Shown in pieces: positions 56,748 through 64,000 of a stretch of 64,000 bases of DNA. The notes under the pieces were generated by a model. The model was given only the letters and a program-made list of their open reading frames with translations. It ran no database searches and was not told the origin of the DNA. Position 1 is the first letter of the stretch; each line of letters begins with the position of its first letter. This DNA comes from Geodermatophilus poikilotrophus (GTDB lineage Bacteria; Actinomycetota; Actinomycetes; Mycobacteriales; Geodermatophilaceae). A program made the translations under genes and the position numbers. The DNA lies in assembly GCF_900111455.1 (NCBI RefSeq), contig NZ_FOIE01000002.1, forward strand, positions 1 through 64,000, written 5' to 3'.

Positions 56748-57839
56748 GTGACCGTCATCTCCGTCCCGCAGGCCTTCAACGAGGACGACCTGTACGTGGA
56801 CCTGGCGTCGATCTTCGACGTCCCGCTGTACCTCAAGTGCGAGGGCTTCAACTTCGCCGGCTCGATCAAGCTCAAGGCCGCCACCGAGATGGTCGAGGCC
56901 GCGGAGCGGGACGGCGTCCTGACCGAGGACTCGATCATCATCGAGTCCTCGTCGGGGAACCTGGGCGTCGCGCTGAGCATGATCGCGGCCAGCAAGGGCT
57001 ACCGGTTCCTGTGCGTGACCGATCCGCGCTGCAACCTGCAGACCCGGCGGCTGATGGAGGCCCTGGGCAGCCAGGTCCACATCGTCACCGAGCCCGACCC
57101 GGTGGGCGGCCTCCTCGGGGCCCGGAAGGCCTACGTCCGCGGGATGTGCGCCTCCGACAGCCGCTACGTGTGGCTGAACCAGTACCGCAACCCGAACAAC
57201 TGGGGAGCGCACTACCGCCGGACTGCGCCGGCGATCGCCCGCGCCTTCCCGGACCTGGACGTGCTGTTCCTGGGCGCGGGCACCACCGGGACCCTGATGG
57301 GCTGCGCCCGCTGGTTCAAGCAGTGGGACCGCCCGGTGCGGATCGTCGCCGTCGACAGCATCGGTTCGGTGACCTTCGGCGGGCCACCCAGCCAGCGGGT
57401 CATCCCCGGGCTGGGCAGCGGCGAGCGACCGGAGATGCTCGACGAGTCCTACGTCGACGACGTGGTCATGGTCGAGGAGGCGGACACGATCCGCACCTGC
57501 CACCGGCTGGCCCACCGCGGCTTCCTGTTCGGCGGCTCCACCGGCACGGTGGTCAGCGGAGCGACGAGCTGGCTGGCCCGCCACGGGAGCGCCGGCGTCA
57601 CGGCCGTGGCCCTCGCCCCCGACCTCGGCGAGCGCTACCTGGACACCGTCTACCAGACCAACTGGCTCGAGGACCTCTTCGGCAAGGACGTGCTGGGCCC
57701 GGTCCAGGCCGCCCACCCGTTCCCGGAGAGCCTGTCGCGGCCGGCCGAGGCGGGCGCCGACCAGGGTGGCGCCACCCTGGTCTCCTCCCCGCCGGACGCC
57801 GACGTCGTCCCGCTGCCCCTGCCGCGGTCGGGGAGCTGA
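56748..57839 (+). CDS. SbnA-like PLP-dependent enzyme (2,3-diaminopropionate pathway type)
   Basis: 363-residue cysteine-synthase-fold enzyme. The PLP Lys is about residue 41 in GSIKLKAA; the substrate loop is ESSSGNLGVALSM; the phosphate loop is GAGTTGTLMGCARW. Long stretches resemble SbnA rather than CysK (DPRCNLQTRRLMEALGSQV, WLNQYRNPNNWGAHY, GGSTGTVVSG, YLDTVYQTNWLEDLF). SbnA condenses O-phosphoserine with glutamate on the way to L-2,3-diaminopropionate; the oxidative partner SbnB is not in the window. GTG start with GAGGAG upstream; the next gene follows after 1 nt. Confidence 0.85.
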   Translation: MTVISVPQAFNEDDLYVDLASIFDVPLYLKCEGFNFAGSIKLKAATEMVEAAERDGVLTEDSIIIESSSGNLGVALSMIAASKGYRFLCVTDPRCNLQTRRLMEALGSQVHIVTEPDPVGGLLGARKAYVRGMCASDSRYVWLNQYRNPNNWGAHYRRTAPAIARAFPDLDVLFLGAGTTGTLMGCARWFKQWDRPVRIVAVDSIGSVTFGGPPSQRVIPGLGSGERPEMLDESYVDDVVMVEEADTIRTCHRLAHRGFLFGGSTGTVVSGATSWLARHGSAGVTAVALAPDLGERYLDTVYQTNWLEDLFGKDVLGPVQAAHPFPESLSRPAEAGADQGGATLVSSPPDADVVPLPLPRSGS

Positions 57840-57840
57840 C

Positions 57841-60800
57841 GTGCTGGGACACCCCGTGGACGTCATCTCCGCCGGCGCGGTCGCCCCCGCGCCGGCCGTG
57901 GACCCGGTGCTCGACGGCTACGCCGCGGTGCTCGCCGAGGTGCTGGGCGTGGCCTCCGTCGACCCCGACGCGCACGTCTTCGACGACCTGGGCGCGGACT
58001 CCATGGTCATGGCCCGCTTCTGCGCCCGCGTGCGCAAGCAGGCCGGCCTGCCGGCGGTCTCGATCAAGGACGTCTACGCGCACCCGACGGTGCGCGGCCT
58101 GGCCACGGCGCTCGCGCCCGCCCCGGCACCGGCCCCGGCGGCCGACCCGGTGACGTCGGGCCTGGCGGCGGTGCTCGCCGAGGTGCTGGGCGTGGCCTCC
58201 GTCGACCCCGACGCGCACGTCTTCGACGACCTGGGCGCGGACTCCATGGTCATGGCCCGCTTCTGCGCCCGCGTGCGCAAGCAGGCCGGCCTGCCGGCGG
58301 TATCGATCAAGGACGTCTACGCGCACCCGACGGTGCGCGGCCTGGCCACGGCGCTCGCGCCGGCGCCGGCCGCGAACCCGGTCCAGGACGGGCTGGCCGC
58401 CGTCCTGGCCGAGGTGCTGGGCGTGGCCTCCGTCGACCCCGACGCGCACGTCTTCGACGACCTGGGCGCGGACTCCATGGTCATGGCCCGCTTCTGCGCC
58501 CGCGTGCGCAAGCAGGCCGGCCTGCCGGCGGTCTCGATCAAGGACGTCTACGCGCACCCGACGGTGCGCGGCCTGGCCACGGCGCTCGCGCCGGCGCCGG
58601 CTGAGGTCGAGGCCCCGGTCCCGGCCGACGTGGCGCCTGTCGCGGCGAGCTCCCCGGTGGCTCGGGCGAGCCATGCCGAGTACGTGGCCACCGGCACGAT
58701 GCAGGTGGCCCTGTTCCTCGCCTACGCCATGGTCATGGGCACGGTGCTCCAGCGCGGCTTCGAGTACATCTGGGCCGGTGGCGGCCTCCTCGAGGACTAC
58801 CGCCGAGCGGCCCTCGTGGGCGGGGCCGCCTTCATCCTGACGTGCACGCTCCCGATCCTGGCGAAGTGGCTGCTCATCGGCCGCTGGCGACCCCAGCAGA
58901 TCCGCATCTGGAGCGCGGGCTACCTCCGCTTCTGGTTCGTCAAGACGCTGGTCTCCGCCAACCCGCTGGTCCTGTTCGCCGGCTCGCCGATCTACAGCTT
59001 CTACCTGCGGGCCCTGGGCGCGAAGGTCGGGCGCGGCGTGGTCGTCTTCAGCCGGCACGTGCCCGTCTGCACCGACCTGCTGACCATCGGCGACGGCACG
59101 GTCATCGAGAAGGACGGCTTCCTCTGCACCCACCGGGCCGTCGACGGCGTCATCCAGACCGGCCGGGTGACGCTCGGCAGGGACGTGTTCATCGGCGAGA
59201 AGTCCGTGCTCGACATCGAGACGTCGATGGGCGACGGCGCCCAGCTGGGCCACGCCTCCTCCCTGCAGGCCGGACAGGCCGTGCCGGCCGGCGAGCACTG
59301 GCACGGATCGCCGGGAGAGCCGACCACGGCCGACTACCGGGGCGTCGCTCCCGCCGACTGCGGCCCGTGGCGCAGGGCCCGGTACGCCGGTCTGCAGCTG
59401 CTGTACCTGTTCGGCCTGTACCTGCCGTTCTCCTTCGGCGTCCTGGCCTACCTGGTGTCGGAGATCCCGTGGATGGGCCGGCTGCTCGAGGGCGGCCCCC
59501 TGGCCTTCACCAGCGCGTCGTTCTACGGCACCGCGCTGCTGACGTCCCTCGTCCTCTACTTCGGGGGCATCCTGCTCAGCCTGCTCGTCGTGATGGTCGT
59601 CCCGCGCCTGCTCGACCTCGTCATCGAGCCGGACCGGGTCTACCGGCTGTACGGGATCCACTACGTGTTCCACCGGGCGATCTCGCGGCTGACCAACCGG
59701 AAGTTCTTCCACGAGGTGTTCGGCGACAGCTCTTACATCGTCGGCTACCTGTCAGCCCTCGGTTACCGGCTCCAGCCGGTCGTGCAGACCGGGTCGAACT
59801 TCGGCACCGAGGTGAAGCACGACAGCCCCTACCTGACCTCCATCGGTCGGGGGACGGTGGTCGCCAGCGGGATCTCGATCGTGAACGCCAACTACTCCAG
59901 CACGTCGTTCAGCGTGTCCCGGACGCGCATCGGCGGGAACAACTTCCTCGGCAACGACATCGTCTACCCGCCGCAGGGCAGGACCGGCGACAACTGCCTG
60001 CTGGCCACGAAGGTCCTGGTCCCGATCGACGGGCCGGTCCGGGAGGGCGTCGGTCTGCTGGGCTCCCCGGCCTTCCAGATTCCCCGCAGCGTCGCCCGGG
60101 ACGACAAGTTCATCCGGATGGCGCACGACGAGCAGTTCCCGCAGCGGCTCGCCGCGAAGAACCGGCACAACCTCGCCAGCATCGGGCTGTTCCTGCTGTC
60201 GCGGTGGGTCTTCAGCTTCGCCCTCATCCTCATCGCCTTCGCGATGGTCGACCTGTACCACTCGCTCGGCGCCGGGGCGATCGCGCTGGCCAACGTCGCA
60301 CTGGTCCTGTTCACCGTCTGCTACTTCGCGTTCGTCGAGCGGGCGTCCACCGGGTTCAAGGGCGTGCGGCCGAAGTACTGCTCCATCTACGACGTCGACT
60401 TCTGGCGGACGGAGCGCTTCTTCAAGCTCTGCGCGCGGGCGAACGTGCACCGGCTGATGAACGGCACCCCGTTCAAGTCCGTGCTGTGGCGGATGGTCGG
60501 CGTCCGGGTCGGGAAGCGGCTGTACGACGAGGGCGCCGGGATGTCGGAGAAGAACATCGTGACCATCGGTGACGACGTCATCCTCAACGCGGGTGCGTAC
60601 ATCCAGTGCCACTCGCAGGAGGACTACGCCTTCAAGTCCGACGCCACCACGATCGGCTCGGGCTCCACGATCGGCGTGGCCACCATGGTCCATTACGGCG
60701 TGACCGTGGGGGACGGCGCCGTCATCGGGCCGGAGTCCTTCCTCATGAAGGGCGAGGAGGTGCCGGCCGGCGCCCGCTGGGGCGGCAACCCCGCTGCCGA

Positions 60801-61011
60801 GCTCGACGCGACCCCCTTCCCCGCCTTCACCGCACCGGCTCCGCGTGCGGAGCTCGGCACCCACGACGACGCCCGCCCCGGGCAGGACACCCAGACCGTG
60901 GAGGAGTTCATGCAGCTGTTCGGCCAGGACAGGGAGGTCTCGGCCATCCCGGTCCCGCGCAGGAGCGGCCGGCACCGCGCCAGCCAGCGTCACCTGGCGG
61001 GGTCCCGGTGA
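57841..61011 (+). CDS. Triple-carrier Pls-type membrane synthetase
   Basis: 1056 residues. Three carrier domains with phosphopantetheine Ser54, Ser135 and Ser212 (each DDLGADSMVMARF). Then six membrane helices in pairs (about 286-347, 517-594, 781-833) alternating with three left-handed beta-helix domains (about 394-494, 658-754, 901-990; hexapeptides such as TIGDGTVIEKDG, RIGGNNFLGND, TIGSGSTIGVATMV). This is the C-terminal layout of epsilon-poly-L-lysine synthetase Pls, whose C1-C3 domains form isopeptide bonds at the membrane. The Pls adenylation domain is absent and lies on the next gene (GTGA overlap). GTG start with GGGGAG upstream. Expected role: iterative amino-acid polymerisation or membrane-coupled transfer. 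Confidence 0.88.
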   Translation: MLGHPVDVISAGAVAPAPAVDPVLDGYAAVLAEVLGVASVDPDAHVFDDLGADSMVMARFCARVRKQAGLPAVSIKDVYAHPTVRGLATALAPAPAPAPAADPVTSGLAAVLAEVLGVASVDPDAHVFDDLGADSMVMARFCARVRKQAGLPAVSIKDVYAHPTVRGLATALAPAPAANPVQDGLAAVLAEVLGVASVDPDAHVFDDLGADSMVMARFCARVRKQAGLPAVSIKDVYAHPTVRGLATALAPAPAEVEAPVPADVAPVAASSPVARASHAEYVATGTMQVALFLAYAMVMGTVLQRGFEYIWAGGGLLEDYRRAALVGGAAFILTCTLPILAKWLLIGRWRPQQIRIWSAGYLRFWFVKTLVSANPLVLFAGSPIYSFYLRALGAKVGRGVVVFSRHVPVCTDLLTIGDGTVIEKDGFLCTHRAVDGVIQTGRVTLGRDVFIGEKSVLDIETSMGDGAQLGHASSLQAGQAVPAGEHWHGSPGEPTTADYRGVAPADCGPWRRARYAGLQLLYLFGLYLPFSFGVLAYLVSEIPWMGRLLEGGPLAFTSASFYGTALLTSLVLYFGGILLSLLVVMVVPRLLDLVIEPDRVYRLYGIHYVFHRAISRLTNRKFFHEVFGDSSYIVGYLSALGYRLQPVVQTGSNFGTEVKHDSPYLTSIGRGTVVASGISIVNANYSSTSFSVSRTRIGGNNFLGNDIVYPPQGRTGDNCLLATKVLVPIDGPVREGVGLLGSPAFQIPRSVARDDKFIRMAHDEQFPQRLAAKNRHNLASIGLFLLSRWVFSFALILIAFAMVDLYHSLGAGAIALANVALVLFTVCYFAFVERASTGFKGVRPKYCSIYDVDFWRTERFFKLCARANVHRLMNGTPFKSVLWRMVGVRVGKRLYDEGAGMSEKNIVTIGDDVILNAGAYIQCHSQEDYAFKSDATTIGSGSTIGVATMVHYGVTVGDGAVIGPESFLMKGEEVPAGARWGGNPAAELDATPFPAFTAPAPRAELGTHDDARPGQDTQTVEEFMQLFGQDREVSAIPVPRRSGRHRASQRHLAGSR
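57937..58592 (+). repeat. Three near-identical 182-bp carrier-domain repeats
   Basis: Units 57937-58118, 58180-58361 and 58411-58592. They differ at one base that I can see (unit 2 has GGTATCG where units 1 and 3 have GGTCTCG, silent for Val). The linkers between them are 61 and 49 nt and differ. Near-identity at silent sites implies recent duplication or ongoing gene conversion. Confidence 0.95.
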
Positions 61012-63533
61012 CCGCCGTCGGGACGGCCACGGACGTCGGCCGCGCGTTCTGGGCCGAGGTGCTCTCCGCCGGCGGGTCGACGACCATCCCCCGGTGGTCG
61101 ACCGCGCCCGCACCCGGCACGGCCGAGCTCGAGGTCACGATCCCCGACTCCACCCGGGTCGCGCTGCGCCGGCTGGCCGACCGGCTGGCGGTGCCGCTGG
61201 GATCCGTGCTGCTCGCGGCGCACGCCAGGGTGCTCTCCGCACTCAGCGGCGAGCACGAGGTGGCGACCGGGTACGTCGCCGGGGACGGCGACCGGCCCCT
61301 GCCGTGCCGGCTCTCGACGGACGCCGACTCGTGGCGGGCGCTGGTGCGGCGCGCCGCGGCGGTCGAGGCCGGACTGCTCGCGCACCGGCACGCCCCCGTC
61401 GACGAGCTCCGCCGTGAGCTGGGCACCGACGGACCGTCGTTCGAGACGGTGTTCGACCCGACCGGCGCGGGCACCGGACTGCCCCGCGACATCGTCCTGG
61501 AGGTCGCTCCGGCGCACCACGGCGACCGGCTGGCCCTGCGACTGCGGTACCGGACCGACGTGCTGGACACCGGGGCTGCGTCGCGGATCGCCGGCTACCA
61601 CCGCACGGCGCTGGAGCAGCTCGCGGACGACCCGGGTGCCCAGCCGCGTCGGACCGGCCTGCTCTCGGCCGAGGAGCTGCGCTTCCAGCTCGAGGACCTC
61701 GGCGGCCCGTGCCGCGAGCTGCCCGACCGCCCCGTGCACGAGCTGTTCGAGGAGCGAGTGGCGCAGCAGCCCGACGCCGTGGCCGTGGTCTGCGGCGACC
61801 GGCAGTGGACCTACCGGGAGCTCAACGCTCGCGCCAACCGGCTCGGCCGGGCGCTGCTGACCCGCGGCGTGCGGCGCGAGGACGTCGTCGCGGTGGTCAT
61901 GGAGCGCGACCTCGAGTGGGTCGCCGCGGTGCTCGCCGTCTACAAGTCCGGCGGGGTGTACCTGGCGCTCGAGCCGCACTTCCCGGCGGGCCGGATCGGG
62001 ACGGCGCTCACCCGCGCGGAGTGCCGGCTGGTGCTCACCGAGGAGGGCAGCAGCACCACGCTGGACCAGGCGCTCGAGACGCTGCCCGGCGTCGAGCGGC
62101 TCCCCGTCGACGCGGCCTGGGCGGAGGAGCACGCCGACGGTGACCTCGGCGTCCCGGTCGAGCTCGACCAGCTGGCCTACCTGCTGTTCACCTCGGGCTC
62201 CACCGGTGAGCCCAAGGGCGTGCTGTGCGAACACGCCGGCCTGCTCAACCACCTGTTCGCCAAGATCGAGGACCTCGACCTCGTCGAGGGGGAGGTCGTG
62301 CCACAGACCGGGCCGCAGTGCTTCGACATCTCGATCTGGCAGATGGTCGCGGGACTGGTGCTCGGCGGACGGACGCTGGTCGTCCCGCAGGAGGTCGTGC
62401 TGGACGTCGAGCGGTTGGTCGACACGCTCGTCGACGGCCGGGCCGCGGTGCTGCAGGTGGTGCCGTCCTACCTGGACGTCGTGCTCACCTACCTGGAGCA
62501 CCACCCCCGCGCGCTGCCCGACCTGCACACGGTCTGCCCCACGGGCGACTTCCTCAAGAAGGAGCTCGTGCAGCGCTGGTTCGCCGCCCACCCCGGGATC
62601 CCGGTCGTCAACACCTACGGCCTGACCGAGACCTCCGACGACGCCGTCCACGAGGTCATGACGGAGGTGCCCGACCGGGACCGCGTGCCCCTCGGCCGCC
62701 CGATCCAGAACGTGCACGTCGACGTGGTCGACGAGCAGGGGACGCCCGTCCCCCTGGGCGCTCCGGGACTCATCGTCTTCTCCGGGGTGTGCGTCGGCCG
62801 GGGCTACATCAACGACCCGGAGCGCACGGCCCGCGCCTTCTCCACCGACCCCAACCGGCCGGGGCAACGGCTGATGATGAGCGGCGACTACGGCCGCTGG
62901 CTGCCCGACGGGAAGCTGGACTACCTCGGCCGCCGCGACAACCAGGTCAAGATCCGCGGGTTCCGGATCGAGATCGGGGAGATCGAGAACGCTCTCCTGC
63001 GGGTGCCCGGCGTGCGGGACGGTGCCGCGATCGTCGCCGAGGGCGCCGACCGGACCAAGCACCTGGTGGCCTTCTACTCCGGGCCGGCGCCGATCGACGT
63101 CGGCGAGTTGACCGAACGGCTGGCCGGCTCCGTGCCCGACTACATGGTCCCGTCGGCCTTCCACTGGCGCGACCCCCTGCCGCTGACCCCCAACGGCAAG
63201 ATCGACCGGACCACGCTGACCGCCCTCGCCGGGGAGCTGCTCACCGGCAGCCAGGACCGCGACGCGCCCGTCACGCCGACCGAGCGCCGGCTGGCCGACG
63301 TCTGGTCGACGGTGCTCGGCGTCCCGGCCGACCAGATCGGCCGGCGGGACTCCTTCGGCGCCCTCGGCGGGACCTCCCTGTCGGCGGTGAAGCTCCTGGT
63401 CGCCCTGGGTCGCGCGGTCTCGCTGAAGGAGCTCCAGGCCGCCCCCGACCTCGCCGCCCTCGCCACGCTGCTCGACGAGCGCGCCGGCACGACCCCCATC
63501 CCCTCGCCCCGAACCCCCGAGAGGACCTCCTGA
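61008..63533 (+). CDS. Stand-alone NRPS adenylation protein (partial C - A - T)
   Basis: 841 residues. About 1-225 is the C-terminal half of a condensation-like domain without HHxxxDG. The adenylation domain spans about 235-745: A3 LLFTSGSTGEPKG (392-404), A5 NTYGLTETSDD, A7 GDYGRWLPDGKLDYLGR, A8 NQVKIRGFRIEIGEIE, A10 PNGKID with the catalytic Lys (about 731). A carrier domain follows with Ser790 in ALGGTSLSAVKLL. By hand alignment to GrsA the pocket residues are D-I-W-Q-C-T-T-D-D; the two acidic residues would suit a basic substrate. It should load its own carrier and/or the three carriers of the preceding protein. GTGA and TGATG overlaps tie it to both neighbours. Confidence 0.92.
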   Translation: MTAVGTATDVGRAFWAEVLSAGGSTTIPRWSTAPAPGTAELEVTIPDSTRVALRRLADRLAVPLGSVLLAAHARVLSALSGEHEVATGYVAGDGDRPLPCRLSTDADSWRALVRRAAAVEAGLLAHRHAPVDELRRELGTDGPSFETVFDPTGAGTGLPRDIVLEVAPAHHGDRLALRLRYRTDVLDTGAASRIAGYHRTALEQLADDPGAQPRRTGLLSAEELRFQLEDLGGPCRELPDRPVHELFEERVAQQPDAVAVVCGDRQWTYRELNARANRLGRALLTRGVRREDVVAVVMERDLEWVAAVLAVYKSGGVYLALEPHFPAGRIGTALTRAECRLVLTEEGSSTTLDQALETLPGVERLPVDAAWAEEHADGDLGVPVELDQLAYLLFTSGSTGEPKGVLCEHAGLLNHLFAKIEDLDLVEGEVVPQTGPQCFDISIWQMVAGLVLGGRTLVVPQEVVLDVERLVDTLVDGRAAVLQVVPSYLDVVLTYLEHHPRALPDLHTVCPTGDFLKKELVQRWFAAHPGIPVVNTYGLTETSDDAVHEVMTEVPDRDRVPLGRPIQNVHVDVVDEQGTPVPLGAPGLIVFSGVCVGRGYINDPERTARAFSTDPNRPGQRLMMSGDYGRWLPDGKLDYLGRRDNQVKIRGFRIEIGEIENALLRVPGVRDGAAIVAEGADRTKHLVAFYSGPAPIDVGELTERLAGSVPDYMVPSAFHWRDPLPLTPNGKIDRTTLTALAGELLTGSQDRDAPVTPTERRLADVWSTVLGVPADQIGRRDSFGALGGTSLSAVKLLVALGRAVSLKELQAAPDLAALATLLDERAGTTPIPSPRTPERTS

Positions 63534-64000
63534 TGTCGTCGTCCCCCCCGGCGTCCCTGCTCGACGTGGAGCTGCGCCCGGGCAGCCCCCCGGTGCTGCG
63601 CGTCGGCGCCGGCGACCCCGCGGCCTGGGCCGGCGAGCACCGCGACGCGCTGCGCGCCGCCGTCCTGGAGCACGGGTCGCTGCTGGTCCGCGGCCTGGGC
63701 CTGGCCGACGCGGACACGGTCGCCGCCGTGGCGGGACGGCTGACCGACCGGCTGGTCGCCGAGCGGGAGGCCTTCGCGCCCCGGCAGCCGCAGCCCGGCG
63801 GCCTGTTCTCGGCCACGCCCTGGCCGGCCAACCAGCCGATGTGCATGCACCACGAGCTCAGCTACACCCTCGAGGTGCCCGGCCTGATGCTCTTCGCCTG
63901 CCTCACCGCCCCCACCGCGGGCGGGGCGACGGCGGTCGCCGACGCGCCGACCGTCCTCGACGCCCTCCCCGCGGAGCTGGTGGCGAGGTTCGAGCGGGAG
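63533..64000 (+). CDS. SyrP-like TauD-family Fe(II)/2-oxoglutarate oxygenase (cut by window edge)
   Basis: First 156 residues only. The fold start (LLDVELRPGSPPVLRV..AAVLEHGSLLVRGLGL) and the iron-binding motif MHHELSYTLEVPG (His106, Glu108) followed by LMLFACLTAPTAGGATAVAD match SyrP-type members, which hydroxylate carrier-bound amino acids at the beta carbon. The second His and the Arg for 2-oxoglutarate lie beyond the edge. ATG at 63533 overlaps the NRPS stop by one base. It probably tailors the amino acid on a carrier in this cluster. Confidence 0.83.
   Translation, partial: MSSSPPASLLDVELRPGSPPVLRVGAGDPAAWAGEHRDALRAAVLEHGSLLVRGLGLADADTVAAVAGRLTDRLVAEREAFAPRQPQPGGLFSATPWPANQPMCMHHELSYTLEVPGLMLFACLTAPTAGGATAVADAPTVLDALPAELVARFERE

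Follow-up and report, generated by a model that had tools for sequence, protein, structure and literature searches.

The Pls/PosA synthetases, which make epsilon-poly-lysine and delta-poly-ornithine, are the nearest described relatives of an operon that lies at the edge of a stretch of DNA from the soil actinobacterium Geodermatophilus poikilotrophus. They combine a carrier (T) with three pairs of transmembrane (TM) helices, six in all, and with three left-handed beta-helices, and the synthetases of this kind listed in the available part of PMC10522769 are single chains with an adenylation (A) domain of their own. The window, by which is meant the whole 64,000-nucleotide stretch analysed here, is positions 1-64000 of NZ_FOIE01000002.1 (a 660 kb contig in a 4.83 Mb genome), and reading frames together with the flanking DNA give one operon that starts at 56748 and extends beyond the window edge at 64000. 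An SbnA-type pyridoxal phosphate (PLP) enzyme, a carrier-membrane protein of the Pls/PosA family, a separate protein bearing the A domain (the A protein) and an oxygenase form one tight operon there. Compared with Pls/PosA, membrane proteins of this kind have no A domain in the chain, carry one to three carriers and have a partner whose A domain shows Trp for Glu at pocket position 3. We lean slightly towards reading the system as a split Pls-type amino-acid polymerase that is fed by a portable unit supplying 2,3-diaminopropionate (Dap).

Streptothricin, whose system is not known to include a Pls membrane domain, is a second point of comparison. Its ORF5, ORF18 and ORF19 likewise have the A domain on a separate protein and give an oligo-diamino-acid product (Maruyama 2012, as cited in PMC9606270 and PMC10522769), with the stand-alone A domain ORF19 itself elongating the chain on ORF18 according to the available part of PMC9606270. 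The poly-diaminopropionate (PDAP) synthetase of Streptomyces albulus PD-1, together with NjxA and NjxB, has the same SbnA/SbnB-type supply and a Pls-type membrane domain; it is one chain, its Dap genes are not adjacent, and neither an oxygenase nor a separate A protein is mentioned in the available text of PMC4668381, which describes release and the control of product mass as unresolved for such synthetases. The poly-beta-lysine synthetase was considered as a split precedent and set aside, that enzyme being listed among the one-chain ones in the available part of PMC10522769, and a search of the open literature for its genes gave unrelated papers among the matches listed. No description of a split Pls-type synthetase was found in the open literature, a search that does not cover subscription journals. 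The two-part layout appears to be new, and it falls within the known Pls/PosA family and not in a new one.

The carrier-membrane protein

The membrane protein (57841..61011, on the forward strand as are all features of the operon in the window) matches TIGR02353, the Pls/PosA profile, at 703.9 bits against a cut-off of 423.1, and the match at 58690-60795 takes in profile positions 2-695 of 695 and is thus full length. Three PP-binding matches lie directly ahead of the membrane domain, as the carrier does in Pls/PosA, but Pfam gives no AMP-binding match in the chain, which in this differs from the one-chain A-T-membrane order of the family. A hydropathy scan has seven peaks, one within a carrier and six as three pairs in the membrane domain (58690..60801), and an AlphaFold model built on an alignment of 39 sequences (mean pLDDT 78.3 for the best of five, the others 66-72; pTM 0.70) places carriers at residues 22-91, 103-172 and 180-249, helices at 278-346, 509-592 and 766-836, and left-handed beta-helices at about 353-495, 600-746 and 846-987. 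The predicted alternation of three TM pairs with three beta-helices is the published PosA layout, as far as it is described in the available text of PMC10522769. An earlier note on this DNA, made from the letters alone, had proposed a Pls-type membrane part with three carriers, six helices and three beta-helix domains, an A domain on another protein, and a fold prediction of 57841-61011 as a check, and all of this has held.

It is apparent that the likeness extends to individual residues. In 41 columns the 14 canonical one-chain domains all have the same residue, as do at least 95% of 52 subfamily sequences, E858, R884, E903, Q922, H924 and D928 being among the shared core residues, and on these alignments the simplest reading is an active site common to canonical Pls/PosA enzymes and the split subfamily. 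A sequence search of solved structures returned nine matches, all of them hexapeptide proteins, and the best 50 rows each from Foldseek and VIA-align were acetyltransferases with a few complex I subunits, single beta-helix lobes matching maltose/galactoside, serine and chloramphenicol-type acetyltransferases. As no Pls chain was found among the solved sequences, its absence from the structure matches listed is no evidence. That the membrane part is a mere sugar acetyltransferase was considered and rejected, the whole domain being Pls/PosA by profile. Neither outcome that the earlier note had set down as refuting its reading came about: the profile match is full length, and relatives share the operon (below).

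The three carrier cores (57919..58128, 58162..58371 and 58393..58602), of 70 residues each and all with a GADSM serine, differ at the first residue only. Their DNA copies differ at 6-9 of 210 bases and, beyond the first residue, at third codon positions, and for these reasons the set is a recent or homogenised triplication selected at the protein level. The triple carrier, which stands in the heading of the earlier note, was considered as the defining novelty and rejected, for it is an expansion of local extent. Among 79 split proteins a single carrier is present in 63, two are present in 11 and three in four, and one protein, which is cut, has none; these counts may miss divergent copies (locus L044 has a second carrier in another frame). 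Extra carriers, to a total of two or three, were added in some lineages, probably raising the loading capacity.

The A protein, its partners and its pocket

The A protein (61008..63533) consists of the C-terminal half of a condensation (C) domain, an A domain matched by AMP-binding at 257.2 bits (Pfam), and a carrier with a GGTSL serine. The condensation match to PF00668 (31.1 bits, cut-off 30.6) is confined to profile positions 195-278 of 456, and HHxxxD was found in none of the 91 A-protein rows when sought in their first 245 residues, unlike the canonical C-A-T of a non-ribosomal peptide synthetase (NRPS), which has a condensation domain with HHxxxDG. The partial C domain noted before can thus be narrowed to a C-terminal half without that motif.

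The genes around it are closely packed. The SbnA-type gene (56748..57839; TIGR03945 and PALP matches) is separated from the membrane gene by a 1 nt spacer, the membrane gene and the A-protein gene overlap by 4 nt, and the latter overlaps the oxygenase gene by 1 nt, so that the gene order, frames and spacing first described for 56748..64000 agree with the reading frames and profile matches. Beyond 64000, where the same note had advised looking, the operon continues with sbnB (64552-65586) and three further genes. SbnA scores 382.9 bits on TIGR03945 (cut-off 349.95) and SbnB 414.8 bits on TIGR03944 (cut-off 326.9), both thus above the NCBIfam equivalog cut-offs, which puts the supply of Dap, previously suggested from SbnA in the window, on two enzymes.

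The oxygenase (63533..64519, of which the window holds 63533..64000) is of the SyrP/TauD Fe(II)/2-oxoglutarate type and matches TauD PF02668 at 146.5 bits. It has an HxE at residues 106-108, H300 and R309, of which we take HxE and H300 to bind the metal and R309 to bind 2-oxoglutarate by motif, and as these are kept in at least 97% of 85 sequences the enzyme looks active. It shares the PF02668 match and the HxE, His and Arg with SyrP/clavaminate-synthase-like hydroxylases, and differs from them in standing mostly beside Dap genes and an A protein of this kind.

The pocket of the window's A domain, read in the PheA numbering, is DIWQCTTDDK. Among 91 sequences, its own included, there are 69 with DIWQSTADDK, 16 with DIWQSTTDDK, five with DIWQCTTDDK and one that is cut, codes being read only where the A domain scored above 400 bits; position 3 of the trans pocket is Trp, and positions 8 and 9 are both Asp. 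Pockets like DIW...DDK have been assigned to diaminobutyrate (Dab) in Pseudomonas. The one-chain homologues have DFEYNGT (seven loci of the genus), DFECLS., DFEALGT and DAESIGT, and according to the available part of PMC10522769 position 2 is Phe in Dap/Dab enzymes.

The trans A domain likely activates Dap, since Dap genes accompany the A protein in most of the loci with a membrane gene and in two loci without one (G282 and G304), and since a Streptomyces plasmid locus has an SbnA-like enzyme and an argininosuccinate-lyase-like protein beside the same kind of pocket. In that locus (L171, 7903-16229, Streptomyces NBC_01351) a C-A-T protein with pocket DIWQSTADDK neighbours an SbnA-like enzyme (209 bits, below cut-off), the argininosuccinate-lyase-like protein, an ATP-grasp protein and a kinase; this is possibly a different Dap route, in which the lyase-like protein could release Dap from an aspartate adduct.

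The three genes that follow sbnB encode a ThrC-like PLP enzyme (65606-66763), a DUF418/HGSNAT-like membrane protein (66760-67974) and a phosphopantetheinyl transferase (67978-68787). The ThrC-like protein, at 145 bits, is below its family cut-off and is not the cell's best threonine synthase, as two other sites in the genome score above that cut-off (319.3 and 237.2 bits); a gene of this kind recurs in 18 of 90 loci, this one included. DUF418/HGSNAT-like proteins occur in the operon and also beside the one-chain DFEYNGT synthetases in all seven loci of the genus (L053-L059), and they may act in export or end-capping.

Distribution, portability and the move from cis to trans

When named genomes were scanned with the A protein, 487 relatives were obtained; the 80 best by A-protein similarity were used, and after removal of nine duplicates 90 loci with an A protein were compared, the window's own among them; three (L088, L119, L147) with a stop codon inside the match coordinates were left out of alignment A3. 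All five core genes (those for SbnA, the membrane protein, the A protein, the oxygenase and SbnB) are found in 70 of the 90, thus the gene set is not a chance one. The order membrane-A protein-oxygenase-SbnB-SbnA is seen in 52 of the 70 complete loci, SbnA comes first in 13 and is reversed in four, and one has another order. The membrane gene (above 500 bits) is present in 84 of the 90 loci, directly upstream in 82 and with 820-853 nt between the domains in two; of the other six, four have a partial gene (L075, L076, L116, L163), in one the stretch begins with the A protein (L105) and one, in S. jeddahensis (L125), has no membrane gene in the stretch read. About half of the 20 incomplete loci are short contigs. 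Distances between the five proteins correlate over the 70 loci (Mantel r 0.51-0.79, with none of 999 permutations as high), which is expected under joint inheritance, although shared species history contributes too.

The recurrence of the operon in relatives, which had been advised as a check within Geodermatophilaceae, extends well beyond that family, and a restriction to it was rejected. Among the best 80 of the 487 relatives the gene set is found in Streptomyces, Pseudonocardia, Kibdelosporangium, Kutzneria, Amycolatopsis, Lentzea, Rhodococcus, Actinoplanes, Ktedonosporobacter, metagenome-assembled genomes of Acidobacteria and Rokubacteria, and others. When 396 sampled actinobacterial genomes were scanned (E <= 1e-220), eight had the A protein, the present one included. 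Within the genus TIGR02353 is over its cut-off in 15 of 26 genomes, with 20 matches in all; 10 of these are split loci, spread over nine genomes, and in the other 10 the A domain is in cis.

Two genomes (G282 and G304) have the A protein, oxygenase, SbnB and SbnA genes side by side; the 19.9 kb read contain no membrane gene, and neither genome has a TIGR02353 match at 1e-100. Both have the pocket DIWQSTADDK and SbnA and SbnB over their cut-offs. The A protein of G282 directly adjoins a frame that is 2718 residues long or more (two A, two C and two T domains and a methyltransferase), with a stand-alone A and C on the opposite side, and G304 has, about 6.5 kb away, an NRPS end of the order A-T-thioesterase. 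Since in these two genomes they lie close to ordinary NRPS genes and lack the membrane gene, the four genes look like a portable unit that would prepare a Dap-derived residue on a carrier for different machines. The oxygenase is fused in frame to the A protein in S. flaveus, at the point where a thioesterase remnant stops, a single case in which an assembly error is possible. SbnA/SbnB beside an NRPS gene are also mentioned for Streptomyces scabies in the available part of PMC11479980, which says too little to place that locus.

The history of the membrane protein can be followed in its relatives. There are 83 membrane proteins beside an A-protein gene, and a cis A domain is undetected in 79 of them, four of which are cut N-terminally by the end of the stretch (L060, L061, L064, L104), and wrecked in four (L080, L084, L106, L111). 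Two further wrecked domains, in Pseudonocardia autotrophica (L172) and P. alni (L174), are followed by three carriers, the membrane part and an oxygenase, with no A protein of the present kind within the 6-7 kb read on each side. There are 84 columns without variation among 24 intact cis A domains; the six retain 45-65 of these, where intact domains left out in turn retain 98-100%; against five intact DFEC-type domains (243 columns) the wrecked ones keep 55-71% and the intact ones 85-99%. Motifs A3 and A10 are among the losses, L080 and L084 have no C-terminal A subdomain in the alignment, and the frames are open through the carrier and membrane parts. As six related membrane proteins thus have a cis A domain wrecked in its catalytic motifs, it seems that activation in cis gave way to activation in trans. 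Two plasmids of ant-associated Pseudonocardia have the same truncated AMP-binding protein, which matches profile positions 1-281 of 409 at 118 bits (below cut-off) and has an annotation separate from that of the carrier-membrane gene; the oxygenase and an SbnA-like gene come next.

The remnants of the pocket read DFECL in L106, L111 and L084, DCQCL in L080, and DLERV in L172 and L174. Since DFECL is also the code of intact one-chain proteins beside ectB in Skermanella, the ancestor of the split enzymes probably used Dab or Dap itself. In those Skermanella plasmids (L173, 4573-10115; L178, 2588-8118) an intact one-chain DFECLSVVTK synthetase adjoins ectB, which encodes a diaminobutyrate transaminase, and this suggests poly-diaminobutyrate in Alphaproteobacteria. 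In a tree made by a quick method, with SH-aLRT as its only support, the split subfamily is on a long branch away from canonical Pls, and split, four wrecked and five intact one-chain proteins are intermixed within it, the four wrecked ones inside a supported (96) group of otherwise split proteins. The A domain was lost several times or, less simply, regained, between which the tree alone does not decide.

Some genomes show other arrangements. G017 has two split copies (L042 and L043) and three one-chain Pls genes, the second split copy being without oxygenase and SbnB in the stretch read. L065 (1013-6410) has a carrier-membrane gene, an oxygenase and a different stand-alone A protein (pocket DASVATMRSK, in an unsure alignment), possibly a third partner arrangement. 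Orphan carrier-membrane genes, with no A domain detected in the stretch read, are found on plasmids of Streptomyces CdTB01 (L169, 8608-11148; one carrier, with CDF transporters and CopC in the stretch), S. mirabilis P16B-1 (L170, 8392-11127; two carriers, ArsR in the stretch) and Arthrobacter FW305-BF8 (L177, 5077-8181; three carriers, ZIP in the stretch and an SbnA-like fragment upstream).

The proposed route and its rivals

In the reading that we favour, SbnA and SbnB would make L-2,3-diaminopropionate, which the A protein would adenylate and bind to its own carrier. The SyrP-type oxygenase would oxidise the carrier-bound, or already acylated, residue, which would then be handed to the carrier or carriers of the membrane protein, where the three-lobed beta-helix/membrane domain would form amide bonds repeatedly and a short oxidised Dap polymer would be released or exported. 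The membrane enzyme would descend from a one-chain A-T-membrane ancestor, its own A domain having been lost once a trans partner with another pocket served. More tentatively, at rather less than an even chance, the system may stand for a class of two-component polymerases in which the A domain has left the chain and a portable unit delivers carrier-oxidised Dap to a carrier-only Pls or to an NRPS, so that its product would be the first Pls-type polymer from a pre-tailored monomer.

Oxidation is the chemically weakest step of this route. Hydroxylation by SyrP-, AsnO- and clavaminate-synthase-like enzymes is usually at the beta carbon. When free, beta-hydroxy-Dap is a carbinolamine, thus the oxygenase must act on an acylated residue or oxidise in another way, possible alternatives being an N-acylated hemiaminal in the chain, alpha-oxidation and desaturation. 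What the earlier note had called a two-component polymerase for a poly- or oligo-amino acid of the Dap type, maybe hydroxylated, therefore stands in part: the split Pls machine, the Dap supply and an active-looking oxygenase in the set remain, and the hydroxylated Dap, chemically awkward as it is, needs revision.

Several points weigh against the split polymerase. A beta-hydroxy-Dap with a free beta-amine is unstable; L043 and L144 truly lack the oxygenase though the stretch goes on, so the oxygenase is not indispensable; and in six mostly non-actinobacterial loci (L083, L097, L111, L116, L129, L136), whose stretches are not obviously cut, SbnA and/or SbnB are below the thresholds (L129 has weaker homologues at 183 and 372 bits, L097 an SbnA match at 100 bits) and a Dap supply is thus unsupported. 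Intact one-chain proteins (L045, L049, L052, L066, L068) are mixed among the split ones in the tree. The trans pocket does not pair Asp 1 with Glu 3, having Trp instead of the Glu that the available part of PMC10522769 reports for all one-chain cationic homopolymer synthetases, and DIWQ.T.DDK could not be matched to a characterised A domain in the open-literature searches, among the matches listed. A thioesterase-like tail, found on 36 of 90 A proteins and not on the window's own, would hydrolyse or offload the monomer rather than pass it on. The choice of relatives by A-protein similarity and of pockets by score counts on the same side, and both the product and the transfer from carrier to carrier are what we infer.

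The strongest rival, though an unlikely one, is a two-protein version of the PDAP synthetase that would make plain beta-poly-Dap from an unmodified monomer, with the oxygenase acting elsewhere or later. The SbnA/SbnB-like supply and the same type of membrane domain in the PDAP system, as given in the available part of PMC4668381, would fit this, as would the two loci without an oxygenase and the orphan carrier-membrane genes on plasmids, which have none nearby. However, the oxygenase belongs to the complete set of 70 loci with its presumed metal and 2-oxoglutarate residues conserved, it remains part of the unit in loci that lack the membrane gene and is in one case fused to the A protein, and the membrane domain shares only about 30% identity with those one-chain homologues in the genus that have a Dap/Dab code.

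It is improbable that the product is a small metallophore or resembles a dipeptide, Dap being oxidised, coupled once or twice and then released by the thioesterase tail. Dap is a siderophore precursor according to the available part of PMC4668381, more than a third of the A proteins have such a tail, and some of the orphan membrane genes share stretches with metal-related genes. Against this, the metal-gene neighbours are few, the window's own A protein has no tail, and in the eight loci compared no other gene family is as widespread as the five, in a comparison that included no siderophore-directed search of the flanks. In Dlt systems the labour is divided between an A protein (DltA), a carrier (DltC) and a membrane acyltransferase (DltB). 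A Dlt-like surface aminoacylation, by which the membrane protein would transfer (modified) Dap to a lipid, glycan or teichoic-acid-like acceptor without polymerising it, resembles that division, and single beta-helix lobes do match O- and N-acetyltransferases whilst the A protein scores on DltA models below cut-off (264.5 of 476 bits), as would many A domains, but it is the least probable of the explanations, as the membrane domain is a full-length Pls/PosA one with conserved core residues, no MBOAT of the DltB kind was found in it among 3 Pfam families or 25 of 31 NCBIfam rows, its matches being TIGR02353, carrier and hexapeptide ones, and the family members described in the available parts of PMC10522769 and PMC4668381 polymerise.

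With the A protein in eight of 396 actinobacterial genomes and in named strains with collection numbers, likely producers of the product of a split polymerase should be obtainable. Variants with one, two or three carriers could be used to test carrier number against rate or chain length, and the decayed cis A domains are a natural series for the switch of an iterative NRPS from cis to trans activation. If the reading as a split polymerase is true, a two-part machine with tailoring would leave the choice of monomer, its chemistry and its polymerisation free to be swapped one without the others, in evolution as well as in engineering.

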